IMG/VR virus record: IMGVR_UViG_3300007735_000460
Location: 1 to 20,901 of that record
Direction: 5' to 3' (one strand)
From: a virus
Length of the DNA stretch: 20,901 bases
Numbering within the stretch: position 1 is the first letter of the stretch; each line of letters opens with the position of its first letter. Shown in pieces: positions 18,715-20,883 of the stretch. Under the pieces are notes generated by a model that saw nothing but the letters and a program-made list of their open reading frames with translations, made no database searches and had not been told where the DNA came from. Both the position numbers and the translations under genes were made by a program.

Positions 18715-18739
18715 AAGAAAGGGCCCCGCGAGGGGCCCT
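18712..18739 (-). terminator. terminator hairpin between convergent operons, better on the - strand
   Basis: AGGGCCCC (18720-18727), loop GCGA, GGGGCCCT (18732-18739): eight perfect pairs. Read on the - strand it is followed by TTCTTTT, making a good intrinsic terminator for the small-gene operon. Its T-tract reaches the polA stop codon. On the + strand only ATTAACA follows, so polA transcripts would be stopped less efficiently. It fills most of the 46-base gap between the two operons. Confidence 0.75.
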
Positions 18740-19527: not shown

Positions 19528-20000
19528 ATGATTTCTTCCTTTTTGATGATGGGACGTGCCCTGTGATGACGGATTTCGTTATGCACGATATCTATCGCTT
19601 TCTCCAACTCTGCTACAGTGCAGGCTTCTAATTGGGCATCATGAATTTCCATGCCCAAATTCAATGAGGTGAGCTCGGGTCCACGCAGAATAAACTTGCC
19701 AGTCTCCACTCCTCTGCTTCCCACGGCAAAGAGAGCGTCCTGCGCGGCCCGAATCTCATCCCTCCAATCGTCTCCAATCCGCATACGAATCAGCGCTTCC
19801 GCCATATTCATTGCAGCGATCAAGACGTCTAAATCTCTACGCTCTGCCAAGCCTCTGCGGGCCCTATCTAATGCATCATGGTTCATGATCATTAGTGTTG
19901 TACCGGAACTTAAGTCGCCAACCGTCTTCATCCCAGAAATGACGTGGGACATCGGATCACGGATCACGCCTTTAGGCCGGTACTTTGAGCGCTTTCTCAT
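19524..20000 (-). CDS. conserved phage protein of unknown function (158 aa)
   Basis: 158 residues; ATGA overlaps at both ends, with the 35-aa gene upstream and the HTH-DUF6378 gene downstream. The N-terminus MRKRSKYRPKGV is strongly basic. A mostly helical body follows, with RRDLDVLIAAMNMAEALIRM (about 54-73) and GDDWRDEIRAAQDALFAVG. Then come GKFILRGPELTSLNLGMEIHDAQ and a C-terminal helix with VAELEKAIDIVHNEIRHHRA. I recognise the pattern as a widespread family in phages and prophages of Proteobacteria, especially Burkholderiales, but know of no assigned role. A basic head and all-helical body could fit a nucleic-acid-associated protein. No catalytic motif seen. Confidence 0.7.
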   Translation of the reverse strand: MRKRSKYRPKGVIRDPMSHVISGMKTVGDLSSGTTLMIMNHDALDRARRGLAERRDLDVLIAAMNMAEALIRMRIGDDWRDEIRAAQDALFAVGSRGVETGKFILRGPELTSLNLGMEIHDAQLEACTVAELEKAIDIVHNEIRHHRARPIIKKEEII

Positions 20001-20104
20001 AACGGTGCATCAGGCAATTTATTGCGCTGTTGTTGCTGGTATTGTTTTTCCTGTGCCTTGGACCAAGGGACAGGACCGCTAGGGGGTGGAAAGGGCCATG
20101 TCAT
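19997..20104 (-). CDS. micro-gene, 35-aa Pro/Gln-rich peptide
   Basis: A 35-codon frame runs from ATG at 20104 to TGA at 19997 and exactly fills the gap between its neighbours. Its ATG overlaps the stop of the 71-aa gene (ATGA) and its stop overlaps the ATG of the 158-aa gene (ATGA). The peptide begins MTWPFPPPSGPVPWSKAQEK, continues Gln-rich, and ends PDAPL. The Trp/Pro-rich start is unusual and has no recognised family. Overlaps at both ends in an operon built that way argue strongly that it is translated. Likely a small accessory peptide that binds a host or phage protein, or simply a coupling device. Confidence 0.6.
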   Translation of the reverse strand: MTWPFPPPSGPVPWSKAQEKQYQQQQRNKLPDAPL

Positions 20105-20316
20105 GTGTTGCGCTCCTTCAATGCTTGTTCGATGGCTCTAGCAAATGCTATCTGTCCGTCAGGCATAGACCCGCCACGGTGTGTTTTCAAAGTCTCTGTA
20201 TAAATATCTAGGATTGTTGTTGTGTGTAGGCCAACCCAAGGCCGTCTGTAGTCTTGGATGTCATCGTCATCATCTACTCTGCGGTGTGGCACTGATATGC
20301 CTATTGGTCTAGTCAT
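20101..20316 (-). CDS. small hypothetical phage protein (71 aa)
   Basis: 71 residues, starting in an ATGA overlap with the 63-aa gene and ending in one with the 35-aa gene. The N-terminus is basic (MTRPIGISVPHRR), then comes an acidic run VDDDDDIQDY. A C-terminal helical region follows, with LDIYTETLKT and PDGQIAFARAIEQALKERNT. No family recognised. Coding status rests on the overlaps and on the absence of a competing frame. Confidence 0.6.
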   Translation of the reverse strand: MTRPIGISVPHRRVDDDDDIQDYRRPWVGLHTTTILDIYTETLKTHRGGSMPDGQIAFARAIEQALKERNT

Positions 20317-20504
20317 GTGTTCTTCTCCAACTTAGCCAGTCGGTCACCCAACTCGCGTATCAGCATCTGAGCCACGTCTAGTTCTTGCATAAGCTGCTCC
20401 CTAGTCGGGCGCTTGATTCCTCGGATAGATTCCTGTTTAGCCTTGCTCTCACGCTCCACACGGTTGAATTCTTCCCACTCTTCTGGTGTTGCTTCAGTCA
20501 TCAT
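20313..20504 (-). CDS. small helical/coiled-coil phage protein (63 aa)
   Basis: 63 residues, nearly all predicted helix, with charged heptads in EEWEEFNRVERESKAKQESI and again LMQELDVAQMLIRELGDRLA. Two consecutive ATGs (20504 and 20501) are possible starts; both lie inside the end of the 60-aa gene. The stop overlaps the 71-aa start. No family recognised; likely an oligomeric or partner-binding small protein. Confidence 0.6.
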   Translation of the reverse strand: MMTEATPEEWEEFNRVERESKAKQESIRGIKRPTREQLMQELDVAQMLIRELGDRLAKLEKNT

Positions 20505-20676
20505 TACGTTCCAATCTTGCTTTCTGCGCAGCCTCCAAAGAGGTGTAACGCTTGGTATTGCTCTTCAATAGATAAATACCATCCAAAGACTTTTGTATCT
20601 CATCTATCACCTCCCCATCAGGGGCTTCCAGCACCCACATCTGCAGGGTCCACTCCTTCCAAACAGATCGTTTCAT
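20494..20676 (-). CDS. small hypothetical phage protein (60 aa)
   Basis: 60 residues; the ATG at 20676 follows GGGGGAGG with a four-base spacer, one of the strongest ribosome sites in the window. The pattern is strand-rich (WKEWTLQMWVLEAP, then GIYLLKSNTKRYTS), ending in a helix (LEAAQKARLERNDD). It looks like a compact alpha/beta mini-domain. Its start overlaps the stop of the 38-aa membrane peptide (ATGA) and directly follows the stop of the 68-aa frame. Function unknown. Confidence 0.6.
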   Translation of the reverse strand: MKRSVWKEWTLQMWVLEAPDGEVIDEIQKSLDGIYLLKSNTKRYTSLEAAQKARLERNDD

Positions 20677-20789
20677 CTATCCTCCCCCGCTGCCCAAATC
20701 ACCATAAGTAATATTGCTATGCCAATTACTAAGAAGAAACCAAGACCCAGCAGCGCCGAGATCATGGCTATGTTGTGTACCGCTTCCAT
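20673..20789 (-). CDS. micro-gene, 38-aa single-pass membrane peptide
   Basis: A 38-codon frame runs from ATG at 20789 to TGA at 20673, in the +1 frame relative to the 68-aa gene it overlaps for 113 bases. The peptide starts MEAVHNIAM, then has about 22 uninterrupted hydrophobic residues (SALLGLGFFLVIGIAILLMV within positions 11-30), and ends IWAAGEDR. This is a clear single transmembrane helix. AAAGGAG lies seven bases upstream, and an in-frame TAG two codons before the ATG excludes an extension. The stop overlaps the next ATG (ATGA). It could be a small lysis, exclusion or membrane-anchoring peptide; no family recognised. Confidence 0.65.
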   Translation of the reverse strand: MEAVHNIAMISALLGLGFFLVIGIAILLMVIWAAGEDR

Positions 20790-20883
20790 GGACTATCTCC
20801 TTTACTAGTTCGTCCTTTAAACGCTGGTTCTCAATGACCAGCTCCCTCCAAGCTTTTAACGCAATCTTGGTGTCCTCGTCCAT
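20677..20883 (-). CDS. small hypothetical phage protein (68 aa), 3' half overlapped by another gene
   Basis: 68 residues. The first 30 look like a real protein: an amphipathic helix or coiled coil reading MDEDTKIALKAWRELVIENQ, then RLKDELVKEI. The last 36 residues (from about HGSGTQHSHD to GSGGG) are low-quality in composition, and here the +1 frame encodes a clean transmembrane helix. Either two genes truly overlap or this frame once ended earlier. The stop TAG abuts the ATG of the 60-aa gene. No function assigned. Confidence 0.45.
   Translation of the reverse strand: MDEDTKIALKAWRELVIENQRLKDELVKEIVHGSGTQHSHDLGAAGSWFLLSNWHSNITYGDLGSGGG
20797..20803 (-). promoter_or_regulatory. ribosome-binding site of the nested membrane peptide
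   Basis: On the - strand AAAGGAG lies seven bases before ATG at 20789, inside codons of the 68-aa frame. This near-ideal site supports separate initiation of the nested gene. Confidence 0.6.

Follow-up and report, generated by a model that had tools for sequence, protein, structure and literature searches.

Introduction

Small hydrophobic phage proteins encoded in early and accessory regions form a general class whose members have fewer than 50 residues and one helix, are accessory in distribution, and lie beside replication genes. In tailed phages, long +1 overlaps are best known from the embedded and overlapped spanins (PMC6139136). Among same-strand overlaps in dsDNA viruses, the +1 relation is the commonest once overlaps of 1 and 4 nt are excluded, and viral +1 overlaps have a median length of 14 nt (IQR 8-26) (PMC8903798). 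The annotated phage most relevant to the locus described here is DSL-LC04 (OR003939; proposed Dishuiviridae), a ∼61.5-kb metagenome-assembled lake phage (PMC10611076).

The DNA analyzed here, referred to as the window, is the entire 20,901-bp fragment of an uncultured lake phage deposited as an IMG/VR virus record. Its replication genes are related to those of DSL-LC04 (polA, 74% identical). At the right end of the window, small overlapping genes form a minus-strand chain convergent with polA. A preliminary description of this chain, made from the letters of the window, had pointed to a 38-aa frame with a predicted membrane helix that shares its DNA with a 68-aa frame. For simplicity, the two genes are referred to as TM and N, respectively.

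Results

Sequence features of the TM and N genes

The TM gene (20673..20789, minus strand) encodes the 38-aa peptide MEAVHNIAMISALLGLGFFLVIGIAILLMVIWAAGEDR, which we assign as a single-pass membrane peptide based on layout conservation, frame-specific selection, and an AF2 prediction. The strand, which had not been given before, is the minus strand. The local signals that had been proposed are all present. The Shine-Dalgarno sequence AAAGGAG (20797..20803, minus strand) lies within N codons and places its AGGAG (20801..20797) seven bases 5' of the TM ATG; its calculated anti-SD pairing of -8.7 kcal/mol falls in the top 1.7% of random window sites. An in-frame TAG (20793..20795, minus strand) stands one codon before the ATG, and the TM stop (TGA) shares an ATGA (20673..20676, minus strand) with the start (ATG) of a downstream 60-aa gene (20494..20676, minus strand), whose function is unassigned and which, by sequence comparison, is conserved in the phage group. 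The hydrophobic core of the helix comprises residues 8-32 (20694..20768, minus strand) and has a 19-residue Kyte-Doolittle mean (KD19) of 3.02, in keeping with its earlier designation as a textbook transmembrane helix. AF2 predicts a single helix with a pLDDT of 93.8.

The shortness of the frame is what one would expect of a chance ORF. However, TM is the window's only ATG-started ORF of 30-60 aa that has both a Shine-Dalgarno sequence and a strong helix, defined as a KD19 of at least 2.5, and no comparable ORF arose when the whole window was dinucleotide-shuffled 100 times. The conservation and the TM-frame selection reported below contradict a chance origin as well, and we give it practically no credence.

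The 68-aa N frame (20677..20883, minus strand) overlaps TM by 113 nt on the same strand, with TM in the +1 frame, exactly as had been reported. The pair had also been called nested, which holds for the TM start, located inside N, but not for its end, as TM extends 4 nt beyond the N stop; the genes are overlapped rather than strictly nested. No membrane segment was found in N, which is a charged helix starting MDEDTK... Its core, codons 1-31 (20791..20883, minus strand), is the conserved helix MDEDTK..L.AWR.L..EN..L, supported by codon-position changes and by a confident prediction (pLDDT 84-94 over residues 1-30). The tail, codons 32-68 (20677..20790, minus strand), is predicted with a pLDDT of 45-51.

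Several other features of the chain were recorded. A strong terminator-like hairpin (18720-18739, minus strand) separates polA from the convergent small-gene operon and is overlapped by a sub-threshold Rfam match to suhB, 2 kb from TM. A 35-aa micro-ORF with an ATG and a Shine-Dalgarno sequence (19997-20104, minus strand) encodes the proline/glutamine-rich MTWPFPPPSGPVPWSKAQEKQYQQQQRNKLPDAPL and overlaps its neighbors by a few bases. A 71-aa gene (20101-20316, minus strand) belongs to a family of the type DDDDIQ.Y.RPWVGLT...AIEAKLKEKNT, with relatives that include L033, L077, and L082; several relatives carry more than one divergent copy.

Conservation of the layout among relatives

Relatives were gathered via polA, the downstream gene, and an N pattern, and independently via TM patterns and a TM profile. 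The resulting 22 distinct sequences are the window, two close relatives (L082 and L084), and 19 divergent sequences that make up clade B. All 22 keep the N-then-TM layout, the frame, the ATG, the ribosome site, and the helix. In clade A (the window, L082/L083, and L084), the TM proteins are 82-97% identical, while the 19 distinct sequences of clade B carry a diverged TM of the type MLxNV..GG.LVVVVGAxLIAAIDFLQNG. A profile comparison of the two (hhalign E 7e-4, probability 26%) is suggestive, and the two TM types are probably homologous. Searches that used TM as their sole anchor found N upstream in every true family member, with N cut by the contig end in L119. TM-pattern matches in L104, L107, and L108 occur in unrelated contexts and were left out as chance.

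Across the family, the distance from the N start to the TM start is 94 to 133 nt, and the lengths of N, which are similar (58-74 aa), vary by whole codons, leaving the +1 relation constant. The ribosome site ranks among the strongest 15% of random sites in each of the 22 members. An assembly frameshift is ruled out because the same frames recur across many independent contigs. The constant +1 relation and linkage would also fit programmed +1 frameshifting that fuses the N core and TM into a membrane-anchored helical protein. Against this, a ribosome site and an ATG are retained in every member, in-frame stops immediately precede the TM start in the window, and no common slippery sequence is visible by eye around the junction. 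We therefore regard frameshifting as extremely unlikely.

The N core is found in relatives both with and without TM. Clade C (L046, L051, L052, and L024) has the core without TM, and different genes overlap its N tail. In L046, L051, and L052, the overlapping gene is hydrophilic, unrelated to TM, and also in the +1 frame, which suggests that the N stop drifts into whichever gene follows. The TM gene was not found in DSL-LC04 or in three ∼61-kb relatives. Likewise, tblastn of INPHARED phages with the window and clade B versions of TM and N gave no convincing match, and of the 39 stretches retrieved by a pattern scan of genome contigs, none contained a relative of TM or N. Neither family has a match in Pfam, PHROGs, NCBIfam, or PDB sequences; hits to PHROGs with E values of 0.007-0.1 were discounted as chance-level.

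Selection in the overlap

In the clade B overlap, 54/23/66 parsimony changes fall at TM codon positions 1/2/3, with an excess at position 3 (p = 0.0005) and a deficit at position 2 (p = 2e-6), where the p-values take parsimony changes as independent. The most conserved position of the overlap is TM position 2, even though it coincides with N's wobble position. Within the N core, the changes at N-frame positions 1/2/3 are 17/14/40. The wobble excess thus moves from the third position of N to the third position of TM, which indicates that the coding footprint switches frame at the TM start. A comparison of the window with L084 points the same way (5/1/8 changes).

As the preliminary description had proposed, substitution rates were compared in both frames. 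Counted against opportunity, dN/dS is about 0.58 in the TM frame and about 1.8 in the N tail, so purifying selection is seen in one frame rather than both. Changes that are synonymous in N are under-represented, and this holds even among those that alter TM. The N-tail value is the expected side effect of overlapping a conserved frame and not positive selection. Instead of relatives that preserve the 68-aa frame and lose the membrane peptide, the reverse was found: the TM frame is conserved and the N tail drifts. Of the proposed two-frame use, then, the micro-gene in the second frame is borne out, while a protein-coding role of the N tail is not supported. Taken together, the sequence comparisons lead us to conclude that TM is a genuine conserved gene in the second frame of N that codes for a predicted membrane peptide.

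True dual coding, in which the same 113 nt would encode two functional products, the TM peptide and the N tail, deserves consideration because N stays open throughout the overlap in 22 of 22 sequences and the N lengths are all similar. We asked how far this openness follows from the TM frame. A stop in the N frame requires that a codon ending in T be followed by a TM codon starting with AA, AG, or GA. TM codons with these starts encode Lys, Asn, some Ser and Arg, Asp, and Glu, almost none of which are found in a membrane helix. The N tail therefore stays open largely because hydrophobic +1-frame codons rarely yield N-frame stops, and the N stop sits at a charged residue just past the helix, at I-D for clade B and at D-R for clade A. 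When random synonymous codons were drawn for a fixed TM protein, 16-83% of draws kept N open as far as the same stop. In tree simulations with TM-only selection that preserve TM chemistry, N was open in all 19 leaves in 29-42% of runs, an openness that dual coding is not needed to explain. A simulation with uniform amino-acid acceptance was rejected, since divergence overshot, charged residues entered the helix, and N-frame stops appeared in nearly every run. As a rule for reading such loci, a TM frame at +1 tends to hold its host frame open, and an open host frame alone is consequently not evidence of dual coding.

The amino-acid differences in the N tail average 13.1 per pair, slightly below the 14.6 (sd 1.1) of a matched TM-only simulation, and weak constraint on the tail is possible. 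In contrast, clades A, B, and C share a conserved core but have unrelated tails. The tail also has a low pLDDT, and both its dN/dS and its shortage of synonymous changes run counter to a functional second product. Dual coding is in our estimation unlikely. The N tail is probably, for the most part, a run-on by-product, or shadow, of the TM frame.

Relation to phage lysis genes

The pair had been likened to nested lysis genes, and a single TM helix in a +1 overlap would suit a spanin, a holin, or a single-gene lysis peptide; embedded and overlapped spanins are also mostly +1 (PMC6139136). The likeness of layout stands but does not extend further. The inner gene of a spanin pair carries a lipobox cysteine, and cysteine is absent from every TM family member. 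The outer gene carries a TM segment at its N terminus together with a periplasmic coiled coil; N is a charged helix devoid of a membrane segment. Spanins also lie beside the holin and endolysin, and no endolysin adjoins TM. On the 36-kb L091 contig, TM is at 27693-27809 and the lysis cassette is at the other end, about 26 kb away; this separation was seen in the L091 contig, the clade A contigs being fragments. As for a holin, TM has the one or more helices expected of it but lacks linkage to an endolysin. DSL-LC04 carries a holin and an M15 peptidase and no TM gene. A lysis role is accordingly very unlikely, and the TM peptide, judged from its gene context and composition, is probably not part of the lysis machinery.

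The cassette of the L091 contig (L113:613-1806) looks textbook-like and complete, consisting of a holin-like ORF, a 157-aa Rz-like protein, an embedded 82-aa Rz1-like ORF, and then an M15 endolysin that is 76% identical to the DSL-LC04 endolysin. The 157-aa protein has an N-terminal TM segment, and the 82-aa lipoprotein-like ORF (..LALSACGF..) lies in its +1 frame. By these features, the two appear to represent the real Rz/Rz1-like layout of this phage group.

Discussion

The reading that we consider likely is that TM is an accessory single-pass membrane protein with its own start and a role other than lysis, and that the N tail is run-on. The peptide would be translated from a ribosome site of its own within the end of the helical N gene, possibly coupled to N translation, as part of a chain of overlapping small genes adjoining the replication genes, and would insert into the inner membrane as a single-pass protein. 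N would act mainly via its first ∼31 residues, with the overlapped tail as run-on, and its helix may partner the TM peptide in a host-membrane role. The position by the replication genes, the accessory distribution, and the single-helix structure together point to an optional inner-membrane protein directed against the host or rival phages. Such a host-membrane modifier might, for example, exclude competing phages or modulate a host membrane protein. We infer this biochemical role by exclusion, from the absence of family matches.

A special case of the accessory role is a membrane-active, toxin-like peptide that depolarizes the membrane and arrests the host or blocks other phages. The size and hydrophobicity of TM resemble those of small hydrophobic toxins, and an accessory distribution would suit one; on the other hand, a non-exhaustive search matched no antisense RNA family in Rfam and gave no promoter-like plus-strand site in the overlap. 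We find this special case rather improbable. We would give a similarly low weight to a broader proposal, namely that N and TM form a two-protein module of a soluble helix and a single-pass peptide, a new class of phage host-membrane effector, in which the deep overlap is retained for translational coupling and the N tail, unconstrained in sequence, is kept open for that coupling.

More small hydrophobic genes flank the N-TM pair, upstream of N in L096 and L103 and downstream of TM in L091, L105, and L109. One example, upstream of N, encodes a 49-aa product (MGYIIGWACFAAWLTHIF..). The N-TM region may be a hotspot for genes of accessory membrane peptides.

With TM, the accessory membrane protein favored here, a conserved membrane-peptide gene is added that standard gene callers likely drop because of its size and the 113-nt overlap. 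This agrees with the earlier expectation that it is probably unannotated.

Comparison with known systems

DSL-LC04 is the nearest annotated complete genome and has a replication-gene order similar to that of the window, but it is without a recognizable N/TM pair. With the general class of small hydrophobic phage proteins TM shares size, single helix, accessory character, and location, and it differs in having no sequence family match. Within the dsDNA-virus +1 overlaps, N-TM belongs to the same class, and its 113 nt is long against the median of 14 nt (PMC8903798). The closest resemblance in layout is to the Rz/Rz1 spanins (lambda embedded, P2 overlapped; PMC6139136): the inner gene starts about 0.45 of the way along the outer gene, on the same strand and in the +1 frame, and in both systems the second gene is readily overlooked by gene callers. 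Unlike Rz/Rz1, N-TM has no lipobox or cysteine, its outer gene is without a TM segment and has an unconstrained tail, it lies outside the lysis cassette, and a relative carries a separate Rz/Rz1-like pair.
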